Source of the DNA: Candidatus Altarchaeum sp.
Lineage (GTDB): Archaea > Altiarchaeota > Altiarchaeia > Altiarchaeales > Altiarchaeaceae
Assembly: GCA_018260755.1 (NCBI GenBank)
Contig: JAGTWP010000067.1
Location: 1-7,274 of the forward strand
Direction: 5' to 3'
Length of the DNA: 7,274 nucleotides
The notes beneath the pieces are model-generated. The model was not told the origin of the DNA. It did no database searches and saw only the letters and a program-made list of their open reading frames with translations. A program made the position numbers and the translations under genes. Shown here in pieces: positions 2,692-7,274 of this stretch. How positions within the stretch are numbered: the stretch's first letter is position 1; the number at the start of each line of letters is the position of its first letter.

Positions 2692-3057
2692 ATGCACGAA
2701 ATTTCAATCGCAACAAGTATCATTGATAGTGTAATTGAACTGGCAGCGCAAAATAATGCCAAAAAAGTTAAGGAAATTTCTATTGAGATAGGAAAACTTG
2801 CAATGATTGACAAAGAACAATTAAAATTCGGGGTTGAAATTTTAGCAAATGATACGCTCTGCAAAGGGATGAATGTTGAAATTAAATTTTTGCCCGTAAA
2901 AATCAAATGCAAAAACAAGCACATAACCACAATTGACGAGGATGTTGAATTCTTGGATATCCCGAAATATTTAAAGTGCGGCAAATGTGGAGATAATGAA
3001 GGAATAGAAATTTTACAGGGAAAGGAAATTTTAATCAGGAAGGTTGTTTTTGAGTAA
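2692..3057 (+). CDS. hypA: Hydrogenase nickel incorporation protein HypA
   Basis: HypA is a cytosolic nickel metallochaperone that works with HypB to insert nickel into the [NiFe] hydrogenase large subunit. I place the start at ATG 2692, not at an in-frame TTG at 2653. The resulting protein begins Met-His-Glu, the invariant HypA N-terminus whose His2 binds nickel, and its 121 residues fit the family. Supporting family features include I-E-I-G near residues 31-34 and the paired zinc-ligand region near the C-terminus. That zinc site is unusual. The first pair reads C73-K-N-K-H77, where the family normally has C-x-x-C, while the second pair is normal (C96-G-K-C99). The zinc may therefore be held by Cys3-His (inference). 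The gene diverges from the ECF ATPase gene and converges on hypB with only a 2-bp gap, so it is transcribed apart from its usual partner. Confidence -1.
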   Translation: MHEISIATSIIDSVIELAAQNNAKKVKEISIEIGKLAMIDKEQLKFGVEILANDTLCKGMNVEIKFLPVKIKCKNKHITTIDEDVEFLDIPKYLKCGKCGDNEGIEILQGKEILIRKVVFE

Positions 3058-3059
3058 AT

Positions 3060-3743
3060 TCAGATTTCTATTTTTGATTTGTTATTTTGTTTATAGTCAT
3101 CCATATTTTTAACAATCCAGTTAATCACCTCATCAATCCCATCCCCGTTTTTAAAACTTGTCTTGAACACTTTAATCCTTGGATTTATCTTTTTTGCATC
3201 ATCTACCATTTTTTCAACATCAGCATTAACTGCATCCGCTATATCTATCTTATTTATGATGCACAAATCAGCAGTAAGAAAAATCATCGGATGCTTTTCA
3301 ACGGTATCATCACCTTCGCTTGAACTTACAACAACTATTCTTTTATGCTCGCCCAGGTCAAAGTCAGTGGGACAGATTAAATTTCCGACATTCTCAATCA
3401 AAAGCAAATCGGTATCTTTTAAATCCATATATTCAATTGCATGACTGATTAAATGCGAATCCAGATGGCATTCTGTTCCGGTATTTATTCCCTTTGCTTC
3501 AATTCCCGTATTCTTTATCCTGTCCGCATCAAGTTTGCTTACAATGTCTCCGACAAGTGCTTTAATTTTAAATTCACTCTTCAATTTCTTTGACAACATT
3601 TCAATCATTATTGTCTTTCCGGAGCCGGTTGCACCCATAATATTTATTGCAAAGACATTGTTTTGAGCAAAAATTTTTCTGTTTCTTTCTGCAATCGTCT
3701 TATTTATTTCTATTATATTTTTGTGTGCGTCTATTGTGTGCAT
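3060..3743 (-). CDS. hypB: Hydrogenase nickel incorporation GTPase HypB
   Basis: HypB is a SIMIBI-class GTPase whose GTP-dependent dimerisation drives nickel transfer, with HypA, into the hydrogenase large subunit. The 227-residue protein has a P-loop G-A-T-G-S-G-K-T at 37-44 and V-G-D-I at 64-67. The nickel/zinc ligand motif C-H-L-D is at 92-95, E-N-V-G-N-L-I-C-P at 117-125 supplies the third metal cysteine (C124), and N-K-I-D at 164-167 gives guanine specificity. It lacks both the N-terminal CxxCGC motif of the E. coli protein and the histidine-rich stretch of some bacterial HypBs, as expected for short archaeal forms. It is the last gene of the hydrogenase unit: its ATG lies inside the maturation protease gene, overlapping it by 13 bp, and its stop is 2 bp from the hypA stop. 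Translation is probably coupled to the protease. Identification is firm. Confidence -1.
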   Translation of the reverse strand: MHTIDAHKNIIEINKTIAERNRKIFAQNNVFAINIMGATGSGKTIMIEMLSKKLKSEFKIKALVGDIVSKLDADRIKNTGIEAKGINTGTECHLDSHLISHAIEYMDLKDTDLLLIENVGNLICPTDFDLGEHKRIVVVSSSEGDDTVEKHPMIFLTADLCIINKIDIADAVNADVEKMVDDAKKINPRIKVFKTSFKNGDGIDEVINWIVKNMDDYKQNNKSKIEI

Positions 3744-4267
3744 TTTAAATAATTATTACAAATTTCCATGACTCTTTCGGCAACCTTTTCGCTTGCTTCT
3801 GATGCCTCGTCAGATAATCCGATTTCCGCTTTAATTGTTTTCGGCTCGCAACCGATTATAATTATCTGTTCGGGCAGAAATTTCATTTTCTTTGCAAATA
3901 CGAGCATATCCCGAAGGTCTGAATCATGGAAACCGAAAGAAAATTTAAACGGATCAAAATCATCCCTTACTTCATCGTTTTTGATTCGGAATTCATAAAT
4001 TTCCCCCGGACTTTTGTTCTGATGAATCGTATCAATAAAAATTGCGGATTTATAGCCTTCAAGGTAATTTGCCATCGTAAAATTTACCGTTCCGAATTCG
4101 ACAAGTTCGATGTCTGAGCCATCAGGCAAATTACCTTTAAACCAGTCAAGTTTGTCTTCTAAAATTTCAACGACATAATGGGCAAATCCGTCATCATACA
4201 TCAGCAAATTTCCAATTCCGCAAATTAAAATTTTATTTAATTTTTCAGATTGTGCAGGTGGTTCCAA
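3731..4267 (-). CDS. [NiFe] hydrogenase maturation endopeptidase (HyaD/HybD/HoxM family)
   Basis: This cytosolic protease removes the C-terminal peptide of the hydrogenase large subunit once nickel is in place. The 178-residue protein has the N-terminal family motif G-I-G-N-L-L-M-Y-D-D-G at 17-27. The three positions that bind nickel in E. coli HybD are matched by D26 (Glu in HybD), D79 (F-I-D-T) and H114 (F-H-D-S). The segment I-G-C-E-P-K-T-I-K at 138-146 corresponds to the usual I-G-x-x-P region. The start is the TTG at 4265-4267. It is the first start-like codon after an in-frame stop at 4283-4285, and the next ATG falls inside the conserved motif. The gene overlaps the 3' end of the large-subunit gene by 23 bp and the start of hypB by 13 bp, so the three are surely one transcript. 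Its position immediately after the large subunit indicates dedication to this enzyme. Confidence -1.
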   Translation of the reverse strand: MEPPAQSEKLNKILICGIGNLLMYDDGFAHYVVEILEDKLDWFKGNLPDGSDIELVEFGTVNFTMANYLEGYKSAIFIDTIHQNKSPGEIYEFRIKNDEVRDDFDPFKFSFGFHDSDLRDMLVFAKKMKFLPEQIIIIGCEPKTIKAEIGLSDEASEASEKVAERVMEICNNYLKCTQ

Positions 4268-5963
4268 TCTCTTCTGTTTTTTTTAAAACACCTTTTCCGT
4301 TATATATATGAATTGCACATCCCAGACACGGATCAAAACTTCTTATTGTTCTGACAACATCAATTCCGTCATAAGTTCCTTTTTCAGTCAGAGGAGTTCC
4401 GATTATCGCCTGTTCGTAAGGTCCAGGATTTCCGTTTTTATCTCTCGGGGATGCGTTCCATGTTGTTGGTGAAATTATCTGATATTTATTAATTTTTCCG
4501 TCCTTCATTATGCACCAGTGAGCAACAACCCCTCTCATTGCCTCAACAATTCCGACACCTATTCCGTCTTTTGGTTTTTCATACTTTGTCCACACCTTTG
4601 AGGCACCGCCTTTAATTGCAGCCAATGCAGCAAGTACCTGCTCATATGTGACATAAGCAGTATACGCATGGAAATATACCCTTGCCCTGATTCTTTCAAG
4701 TGCATTTATTTTTGAAGGAATGTTCCATTCAACATCCATTGCACCCGGTACTTTGGCATCAATTCTGTTTGTTCTTGGCAGAGTAAATTTAAGCGATTTT
4801 CCAGTAGATTCCGGAACTTTTTTTGAAACGGTAGTTATATACATTCTTGCCAAAGGTCCTACTTCAACAACATAAATTTTTCCGTCCTTACTTTGCCATC
4901 TTGGACATTTAAGCCAGGTATATTTATCGTCCCATTTCTTTGCTTCCTGCGGCTTTGGATTTGTATGTTCGTTCCACGGATGATTCTTGTCCAATTCATT
5001 CCCAAGCGGATCTTTTTCCATATCCTTTCCATCCCATTCCTCATAATAGGAATGATTGACATATTCTCTGACACCTAAATTTATTTCAATCAAATCATTT
5101 GTTATAATTTTTCCGCCTGCAAATACACCGGGAGTTACTGCTCTTTTTTCTCCCCATTTTCCCATATCTGCGTATTTTGCGTTGTAATCGGCAAGACCTT
5201 CATAACAGCCCGCACTTAAAAATGTTGCCTCTCTTTTACCTGTTTCGCTGTAAAACCGGGACATAAAATTGAGCAAATCGTCAAATATTAAAACAAATTC
5301 CTTGCTAAAAGCCACATGCCGAGAAAGCATATCTGCATATTGTTCGAGGTCGCTTGCTGTAAGTGTTTTTCCGATCCCCCCTGGAACAAATGAATTCACA
5401 TGCGGATGTTTTCCTGCAAGTAACGAAGCCATCTTTCTCCCGAGTTTTGACATTTCCAGACCCTTAAGCCATAATGCTCCAGTTATCGGATTTAATGCCT
5501 TACAAATATCTGCAATTGTTGAAAATCCATGCATACCAGAATGTTCCGCCTTTGTTTTTTGTGCCTCTTGGAGAACATCAGGGGCATATTTGTTAAGTAT
5601 CACTTCGGAATAATCCGGACCTTCCAAAATACAACATCCGAGTGAGGCATCATAAAGCTCTTCTGCCATTAATGTAAAATTTCTCAATGCTATTCCAATA
5701 GGCGGAGGAGGCGCATTATACGCCATTTCAACACATTCAACACTTGCCGTTGCATGCGGAACAGGACAGACGCCGCAAATTCTCTGGGTTATCCAGATCG
5801 CATCTGCTGGCTCTCTGTTTTTAAGTATTATTTCAAAGCCCCTGAACATCGTTCCATAAGAATGTGCATCAATATATTTATTTGTTTTCTCGTCAGCGAT
5901 TGCATGAATTGCCAGATGCCCTTCAATCCTCGTTAATGGTTCTATAATAATTTCTTTTGCCAT
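4245..5963 (-). CDS. [NiFe] hydrogenase large (catalytic) subunit, group 1-like
   Basis: This catalytic subunit binds the Ni-Fe(CN)2CO centre and interconverts H2 with protons and electrons. The 572-residue length matches group 1 enzymes. Residues seen are R-I-E-G-H at 12-16 (E14, proton path), the first metal pair C63-G-V-C66 within R-I-C-G-V-C-P-V-P-H, the E-A-M-R-G segment with conserved R477, and the second metal pair in D-P-C-L-G-C-A-I-H at 544-552 (C546, C549). Group 1 signatures include the H-P-H-V region (186-189), H-P-W-N with T-N-P-K-P (329-338), Y-T-W-L-K-C-P-R (348-355) and E-V-G-P-L-A-R-M (367-374). The endopeptidase should cut after H552, removing 20 residues. Both cysteine pairs are cysteine, with no sign of selenocysteine. 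The start is ATG without a Shine-Dalgarno sequence, 75 bp downstream of the small-subunit stop. The exact group 1 subclass is not assigned. Confidence -1.
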   Translation of the reverse strand: MAKEIIIEPLTRIEGHLAIHAIADEKTNKYIDAHSYGTMFRGFEIILKNREPADAIWITQRICGVCPVPHATASVECVEMAYNAPPPPIGIALRNFTLMAEELYDASLGCCILEGPDYSEVILNKYAPDVLQEAQKTKAEHSGMHGFSTIADICKALNPITGALWLKGLEMSKLGRKMASLLAGKHPHVNSFVPGGIGKTLTASDLEQYADMLSRHVAFSKEFVLIFDDLLNFMSRFYSETGKREATFLSAGCYEGLADYNAKYADMGKWGEKRAVTPGVFAGGKIITNDLIEINLGVREYVNHSYYEEWDGKDMEKDPLGNELDKNHPWNEHTNPKPQEAKKWDDKYTWLKCPRWQSKDGKIYVVEVGPLARMYITTVSKKVPESTGKSLKFTLPRTNRIDAKVPGAMDVEWNIPSKINALERIRARVYFHAYTAYVTYEQVLAALAAIKGGASKVWTKYEKPKDGIGVGIVEAMRGVVAHWCIMKDGKINKYQIISPTTWNASPRDKNGNPGPYEQAIIGTPLTEKGTYDGIDVVRTIRSFDPCLGCAIHIYNGKGVLKKTEEIGTTCTI

Positions 5964-6038
5964 TTTTATTTTAATAAATTTAATAAATTTTAAATTTTTT
6001 TAGTTTAAATTTTTGGTCTAAATTCTTATTTTAAATTT
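5964..6038 (-). other. AT-only-like spacer between small and large hydrogenase subunits
   Basis: The 75-bp gap is almost entirely A and T. On the coding strand it carries repeated A-tract/TTTAAA elements like those upstream of the small subunit. There is no Shine-Dalgarno sequence before the large-subunit ATG. A TATA-like ATTTAAAATTTA at 5984-5995 is centred about 27 nt before that ATG, so an internal promoter giving a leaderless large-subunit transcript is possible. Chance occurrence is equally possible at this base composition. Confidence -1.
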
Positions 6039-6998
6039 TTAAATTTTTCTTGACAACAGTCGTGAAAGTACTGCTTTTACCTTTGCGACCATATCTTCCA
6101 TTGCCTCCGAAGCATAAGGTCCTACAGGTGCTTTTTGTAAGAACGGTGAGAATGGTTCATCAGGAAATTCTGGCTCTGTGCATCCTATACAAATTCCTCC
6201 GACTGTTGTGCATCCTCCGGCACCTTCAACAAATCCCTTTTTCGGAACCTGACAATGTGTGATTATTCCTTTGCATCCGAGCATTCCCATACAATACGGC
6301 TCGCCGAATTCGGAAGAATATTTCCCACCTGCGAAATATCCTGCTCTCGGACAAATTTCATGCACCTTCGGACCATACAAAAATACTGGCCTGTTATCTG
6401 CATCGAGTTCCGGAACAGGTAAAGCACCTCTCGCTGTTAAAACAAGATGTCCCAAGGCCTCAATTATTGTTTCTCCCGAAGGCGGACACCCTGGAAGATT
6501 AATGACTGGCAGTCCTAAACCGCTTTTATAATCCTTTCCTAAGAAATTTATAACTCCTTTTGCTCCTGTCGGATTTGGATTCCCATGCGGAATTCCGCCA
6601 AATGATGCACACGCACCGACAGCAACAACCACTCCTGCCCTTTTTGATAATTTTAAAAGCACATCATCAAATAACATCATTTTCCCATCTATTTCCCCGA
6701 CACCGCAATAATACCCGCCTGTTTCTTGTGCTTTTTTCTCGTCCGGAACAGCACCTTCAACAACAAGAACAAACGGATCATACTTCCCATTTATTACATC
6801 ATCTAAAATTTTTGAGGCAGCTTCTCCCCATGGAACCATAATTGTCGGATGATAGACCAAATTTATTCCTTCAATTTGCGGCAGAAAGCCGGTAAAAACA
6901 TTAATTAAGTCCGGGTTTGTTCCCCCTGTCACAGAAACCGTACAGCCCGTGCATCCCTGTCCCTGTATCCATACAACATTTATTTTTTCAAGTGTCAT
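6039..6998 (-). CDS. [NiFe] hydrogenase small (electron-transfer) subunit
   Basis: This iron-sulfur subunit carries electrons between the Ni-Fe site and an external partner. In 319 residues all twelve expected cluster ligands are present. The proximal set is C16, C19, C130 and C171. The distal set is H213, C216, C236 and C242. The medial set is C249, C270 and C273, plus an extra C263 at the place usually held by proline. The CTGC motif has Gly at position 18, and Gly follows at 135. The extra cysteines of oxygen-tolerant [4Fe-3S] enzymes are therefore absent, and a standard proximal cluster is expected. The protein starts directly at the cluster domain: there is no twin-arginine signal. Upstream codons back to the in-frame stop at 7071-7073 contain no usable start and no RR motif. 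It ends shortly after the cluster domain without a membrane helix. A cytosolic location is inferred. It is probably the first gene of the unit. Confidence -1.
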   Translation of the reverse strand: MTLEKINVVWIQGQGCTGCTVSVTGGTNPDLINVFTGFLPQIEGINLVYHPTIMVPWGEAASKILDDVINGKYDPFVLVVEGAVPDEKKAQETGGYYCGVGEIDGKMMLFDDVLLKLSKRAGVVVAVGACASFGGIPHGNPNPTGAKGVINFLGKDYKSGLGLPVINLPGCPPSGETIIEALGHLVLTARGALPVPELDADNRPVFLYGPKVHEICPRAGYFAGGKYSSEFGEPYCMGMLGCKGIITHCQVPKKGFVEGAGGCTTVGGICIGCTEPEFPDEPFSPFLQKAPVGPYASEAMEDMVAKVKAVLSRLLSRKI

Positions 6999-7101
6999 TT
7001 TAAATTTTTTAAATTTTTCTTTAAATTTTTTAAGTTTAATAGGACTTGTTAAATTTAAAACAAATTGAAATTACATCAAATTTAATAAAAAACAATAAAA
7101 T

Positions 7102-7145
7102 TTTGACATTAAATAAATAATAAAAGTTTGATATTAAATAAATAA
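7102..7145. repeat. Pair of 19-nt direct repeats, 25-bp period
   Basis: TTTGACATTAAATAAATAA (7102-7120) and TTTGATATTAAATAAATAA (7127-7145) differ at one base and are spaced 25 bp start to start. They lie about 105-145 bp upstream of the small-subunit start. They may be a double binding site for a regulator, alternative TATA elements, or a small local duplication. Confidence -1.
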
Positions 7146-7209
7146 CGCTCATATGTTGATTTTTACTTATAGAGATAAACACATTGTTGAAGTTTTGCAA
7201 ATTTTAAAA

Positions 7210-7269
7210 TTCAAGCACAAACTCAAATATAAATCCAAGTTCAAATACACTATAAAATGCAAAACACAA
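7210..7269. repeat. 12-nt imperfect tandem repeat series
   Basis: Five consecutive 12-mers can be read: TTCAAGCACAAA, CTCAAATATAAA, TCCAAGTTCAAA, TACACTATAAAA and TGCAAAACACAA. The third and fourth bases (CA) are shared by all five, and the end is AAA or close to it. The first three are the most alike. The series may continue beyond the window. It is degenerate and gives no convincing coding frame. Confidence -1.
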
Positions 7270-7274
7270 AAGTT

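Follow-up and report, generated by a model that had tools for sequence, protein, structure and literature searches.

A group 1 [NiFe]-hydrogenase of Candidatus Altarchaeum without Tat signal or membrane anchor, and a NuoEFG-less complex I as its candidate electron acceptor

The hydrogenase genes of Candidatus Altarchaeum analyzed here encode a heterodimeric [NiFe]-hydrogenase together with its own maturation factors, and no signal peptide, membrane anchor or electron partner is encoded in the unit. Our reading, in which confidence and doubt weigh about the same, is that of a cytoplasmic H2-uptake enzyme feeding a complex I that lacks NuoEFG, possibly via a ferredoxin insert in that complex; the coupling is suggested by gene order and co-occurrence. 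The electron donor of the 11-subunit complex I is a standing question in most organisms that have it. If the reading is true, H2 becomes a testable electron donor for this complex in uncultured archaea of the subsurface, supplied by way of a group 1 hydrogenase, and the use of geological H2 by Altiarchaeota without a hydrogenase cytochrome b is explained. Group 1 enzymes are typically H2-uptake hydrogenases feeding higher-potential acceptors.

Group 1 hydrogenases in Altiarchaeota are already on record, and what is new here are the candidate electron acceptors. According to the accessible text of the respective study, Ca. Altiarchaeum GA and other Altiarchaea carry a group 1 [NiFe]-hydrogenase, which was lost in Ca. 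A. hamiconexum (PMC8755723). In the accessible text of a study on Acidianus brierleyi, at least three undescribed group 1 clades are distinguished across Altarchaeota, Thermoproteota and other phyla (PMC11018855), and the Altiarchaeota/Bathyarchaeia clade described below is probably one of them. That text gives no partner, localization or gene order for the undescribed clades, the accessible part of PMC8755723 gives no subunit topology or electron partner, and no published statement on the topology or partner of these archaeal hydrogenases was found in the accessible papers.

Gene Organization of the Hydrogenase Locus

The window, i.e., the whole stretch of DNA that was analyzed, is an entire contig of 7274 bp (G000:C24) from a 1.32-Mb Ca. 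Altarchaeum genome (85% complete). The following features of the unit were assigned:

6998–6039, minus strand: [NiFe]-hydrogenase small subunit, 319 aa (PF01058 and PF14720)
5963–4245, minus strand: [NiFe]-hydrogenase large (catalytic) subunit, 572 aa (PF00374; 430 bits with HofG, 5aa5_C; motifs; tree)
4267–3731, minus strand: HycI/HupD-type hydrogenase maturation endopeptidase, 178 aa (TIGR00072 above cut-off; PF01750)
3743–3060, minus strand: HypB nickel-insertion GTPase, its start overlapping the protease gene (TIGR00073, 282 bits against a cut-off of 121)
2692–3057, plus strand: HypA nickel metallochaperone (PF01155; NCBIfam hypA scores just under the cut-offs)
6999–7274: gene-free AT-rich stretch 5' of the small subunit, to the contig end (ORF list and contig limit)

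The protease gene begins with TTG and overlaps the large-subunit gene by 23 nt, and hypA converges on hypB with a gap of two bases. An earlier note on this DNA had proposed a complete hydrogenase unit without signal peptide, anchor or electron partner, and the open reading frames, protein families, motifs and hydropathy agree with it. The same note regarded the unit as bounded on both sides. This holds downstream, where the opposing hypA lies; the 276 bp upstream of the small subunit stop where they do because the contig finishes at 7274, and this assembly does not show that boundary. Where the contigs of relatives extend further, the gene next upstream is a divergent hypD, an unrelated gene at 0.5 kb or a GET3/ArsA ATPase gene, and among the Altiarchaeota relatives with longer contigs it is never an electron-transfer gene. 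The hydrogenases of same-genus genomes are 91–92% identical to that of the window, and the named records that match it are Candidatus Altarchaeum HURL_140 and Altiarchaeales A3.

Several neighboring features were observed in addition. In IMC4, the GET3/ArsA-type ATPase gene directly precedes the hydrogenase, and in three Bathyarchaeia it is found a few kb away:

L029:7816–8724; L121:871–1851; L122:154–1167; L124:3–749: GET3/ArsA-type ATPase, IMC4 and three Bathyarchaeia

A gene for an ECF-type (CbiO/nickel-cobalt-like) ABC transporter ATPase (1820–2644 of the window) adjoins hypA, and in the HURL genome (L026) this ATPase occurs twice, once complete and once as a fragment of 97 aa, which suggests insertion or duplication at this gene. 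Positions 3–929, at the contig end, encode a HEAT-repeat protein with near-identical 99-bp repeats (2.7–3.5 copies at 82–90%), and this array is the likely cause of the assembly break.

Catalytic Motifs and the Absence of Export Signals

The large subunit has kept both [NiFe] motifs (RICGVCPVPH and DPCLGCAIH), and a C-terminal tail of 20 residues is available for the protease to cleave; the group 1 hallmarks RxCGxCxxxH, DPCxxCxxH and a cleavable tail are thus all present. The small subunit likewise has the Oxidored_q6 and NiFe_hyd_SSU_C domains of group 1 and ligands for three clusters, namely C16, C19, C130 and C171 (proximal), C249, C263, C270 and C273 (medial), and H213, C216, C236 and C242 (distal). 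From the cysteine pattern, all three are predicted to be [4Fe-4S] clusters. A variant of the C-terminal motif, DPCxxCxxQ in place of DPCxxCxxH, was seen in the large subunits of three Bathyarchaeia (L041, L042 and L125).

The small subunit ends in an amphipathic tail with the residues SRKI. The highest Kyte-Doolittle mean over 19 residues is 1.48 for the small and 1.42 for the large subunit, and therefore neither resembles a membrane protein; the absence of a C-terminal helix, noted earlier, is borne out. Read 5' of the small-subunit ATG, the frame is closed by a stop some 25 codons away, with neither an RR motif nor a hydrophobic stretch in between; the lack of an RR motif had been claimed earlier from the upstream in-frame codons. 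It might be objected that the small subunit is truly exported and that its signal is hidden by a misassigned start codon or by misassembly, as Tat signals are present in two relatives outside the clade (G043 and G269). Given the in-frame upstream stops and the agreement of the seven clade small subunits that were aligned, none of which has an RR signal, we consider this barely credible. TatC, too, was not found in several carriers, namely the Altarchaeum genome (G000), the single-scaffold IMC4 (G012), G061 and six Bathyarchaeia (G288–G291, G293 and G310), most carrier genomes being drafts and IMC4 itself estimated at 90% complete. Tat export therefore looks impossible in these carriers, as far as incomplete genomes can tell. 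A Tat signal from an upstream start was accordingly rejected on the signal-free upstream frame and the missing TatC.

Most group 1 subgroups combine a Tat signal with a cytochrome b or another membrane partner, and the window enzyme has neither. This combination does not define all of group 1, because the small subunits of group 1h are also without it. The earlier note had treated the lack of export and of a cytochrome b as a departure for an enzyme of this kind. This view finds no support, since the nearest solved relative, HofKG, and other bacterial 1h enzymes are Tat-less as well; the exported, cytochrome-b-linked expectation applies to other branches of group 1.

Placement Among [NiFe]-Hydrogenases

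The nearest solved relative of the large subunit is by far HofG of the group 1h enzyme HofKG (430 bits; the next scores 205), and the nearest PDB chain to the small subunit is HofK (5aa5_A). HofKG of Cupriavidus necator (Ralstonia eutropha) is the actinobacteria-type hydrogenase, formerly group 5 (PDB 5aa5), a group further characterized by high affinity and insensitivity to oxygen. Like the window enzyme, it has a small subunit without Tat signal and anchor, and the medial-cluster cysteine pattern C-x-V-P ... C ... CIGC is common to both. The missing Tat signal is expected here, because in HofK, as in the small subunits of other bacterial 1h enzymes, the cluster domain stands at the very N-terminus. 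However, identity to HofKG is only about 40%, and the two differ in several motifs. The proximal motif is CTGC in all aligned clade members and CDGD in all four 1h sequences, and the L1 motif is RICGVCPVPH in the window against RICGICGDNH in 1h. Furthermore, the NifU-like, DUF5947 and DUF6084 genes that come after the 1h structural genes are absent from the window. Because the proximal motif, the L1 motif and the gene neighborhood differ, the clade was not filed as 1h.

A phylogeny of the large subunit, as the earlier note had called for, did yield a separate clade near 1h, though not a firm order around it. The 13 large subunits from Altiarchaeota and Bathyarchaeia all fall on one branch (100/99), outside the bacterial 1h sequences, which form another (100/100). 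The two Tat-bearing archaeal sequences (G043 and G269) lie near both branches, with a branching order at 81/64 (AU p 0.07), values at which one Tat-less origin common to the clade and bacterial 1h is neither demonstrated nor rejected.

Soluble Tat-less sensors exist in group 2b (HoxBC), and by analogy the window enzyme could serve in regulatory H2 sensing or in some other role outside respiration. We judge this very improbable: a long distance separates the clade from HoxC in the tree, the clade retains a cleavable tail and a dedicated protease whereas HoxC ends at the histidine, and the neighborhoods examined showed no gene for a sensor kinase.

Complex I as a Candidate Electron Acceptor

That the acceptor is encoded elsewhere, as proposed earlier, fits the absence of a partner gene from the unit and the candidate complex I on another contig of the Altarchaeum genome. 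This contig (C27) carries nuoA-B-CD-H-I-J-K-L-N and no nuoEFG. The operon is thus without NuoF, and its NuoD is without an NiFe motif, as befits an 11-subunit complex I. In Altarchaeum the hydrogenase and complex I lie on different contigs, and their adjacency is seen in relatives only, which counts against the coupling.

In five Bathyarchaeia (G062, G288, G289, G290 and G291), the hydrogenase pair has as its immediate divergent neighbor a nuoA-B-C-D-H-I... operon, which encodes an 11-subunit complex I without the NADH module, and in G063 Nuo antiporter genes occur within about 5 kb of the pair. The five adjacent cases represent about two lineages and G063 a third, which counts against the independence of this link. 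A close NuoD (at least 73% identity) was found in 7 of 8 Bathyarchaeia with the hydrogenase versus 11 of 248 without it (Fisher p 2e-8, a value that ignores kinship). In the 28 bacterial 1h-type loci checked, no flank contained complex I genes. Beyond these 28, a Mycobacterium intracellulare subsp. chimaera plasmid (NZ_CP012886.2; L130) has a 1h operon and, after it, a nuo operon with all 14 genes.

In hydrogenase-bearing Altiarchaeota, the complex shows a feature that sets it apart from other 11-subunit, Fpo-like complexes. The NuoC-NuoD proteins of four hydrogenase-bearing Altiarchaeota with complex I contain, in the NuoC part, a ferredoxin-like insert of roughly 100 residues with eight cysteines for two clusters:

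G000:C27:23001–25001 (L091:3001–5001): NuoC-NuoD fusion with 8-Cys ferredoxin insert

The hydrogenase-negative G002 has the NuoC-NuoD fusion and no insert. As G002 is the sole negative genome, the correlation of insert and hydrogenase is a lead and not proof. The bathyarchaeial NuoC is without the insert, which counts against the insert as a general port. Two candidates for a further hydrogenase were rejected: that on C27 is the NuoC-NuoD protein, there being no [NiFe] motifs in the NuoD proteins, and the Hyf-like complex near the hydrogenase in IMC4 (L093:8387–9964) has a large-subunit homologue without NiFe motifs, as judged by eye.

On the preferred reading, HypA, HypB and the dedicated protease would mature the hydrogenase in place, and H2 would be oxidized at the NiFe site in the cytoplasm. 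Electrons would then pass the three small-subunit clusters to the histidine-ligated distal cluster and enter the membrane chain at the 11-subunit complex I without NuoEFG, directly or via the ferredoxin insert. A second partner, either alternative or downstream, may be a DsrK/HdrD-like protein acting together with a small membrane subunit. In a stricter form, the heterodimer would dock on complex I as an H2-input module in place of NuoEFG, making it an H2-oxidizing ion pump with the ferredoxin domain of the Altiarchaeal NuoC-NuoD as docking port; we put this forward tentatively, as a possibility that falls well short of even confidence.

The gene-order link could also be functional and indirect, with the hydrogenase reducing free cytoplasmic ferredoxin, or forming H2 from it, and complex I oxidizing the ferredoxin. 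This does not by itself account for the tight linkage to nuo genes, and group 1 enzymes, as uptake hydrogenases, would be expected to serve higher-potential acceptors; nevertheless, ferredoxin is described as the donor of other archaeal 11-subunit Fpo-like complexes (PMC7886697). CODH/ACS-like genes near complex I on C27, as read from sequence starts, need low-potential electrons, and complex I persists in G002 without hydrogenase. We regard such an indirect link as rather unlikely, albeit worth keeping in view. Since G002 and 11 Bathyarchaeia have complex I and no hydrogenase, complex I must have another electron source in those genomes.

DsrK-Like Proteins and Other Partners

A DsrK-like gene and a membrane protein of roughly five helices are encoded on C27 divergently from the complex I operon, and in IMC4 a DsrK-like gene is divergent from nuoA. 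Such genes are present in G000, G003 and G012 and were not found in the hydrogenase-negative G002. The DsrK/HdrD-like protein with its small membrane subunit could therefore be the main partner in the fashion of the Isp-type enzymes (1e, 1g and SUL2), complex I being a mere neighbor in the same respiratory chain. In the Isp type, isp1 and isp2 lie between or after the structural genes of a Tat-bearing enzyme, as, in the accessible text, after those of SUL2 of Acidianus (PMC11018855). Two relatives resemble this arrangement in that genes for DsrM/Isp1-like and DsrK/Isp2-like proteins adjoin the structural ones. In G310, which has no Tat signal, DsrM-like and DsrK/TmcB-like genes, and not complex I, adjoin the pair as divergent neighbors, and in the Tat-bearing G043 the small-subunit, large-subunit, membrane-protein and DsrK-like genes form a single run.

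The window itself has no isp-like genes, and whereas the 1g and SUL2 enzymes are modelled as extracellular in the accessible text of PMC11018855, the window enzyme is without a Tat signal. G001 and G026, two incomplete genomes with the hydrogenase, yielded no more than distant DsrK-like proteins, which counts against such a partner. A 271-aa Altarchaeal membrane protein matched no family and no profile of Isp1-like proteins, so that its candidacy as Isp1 found no support. A main role for the DsrK-like protein thus appears distinctly unlikely to us, and complex I is kept as the preferred acceptor.

In the genome check for partners recommended earlier, neither a cytochrome-b561-type hydrogenase subunit (PF01292) nor NuoF of a NAD-type partner (PF01512) was found in the 85% complete Altarchaeum genome. 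An FrhB/F420 partner was set aside, as the two FrhB-like matches in this genome lie among genes that look unrelated to the hydrogenase.

A partial duplication was observed on C27. Positions 32312–32614 encode 100 aa that match the beginning of the DsrK-like gene (38178–39539) at 93% identity; this fragment lies 6 kb before the full gene and is followed by a gene for a membrane Fe-S protein and a CBS-domain-like gene.
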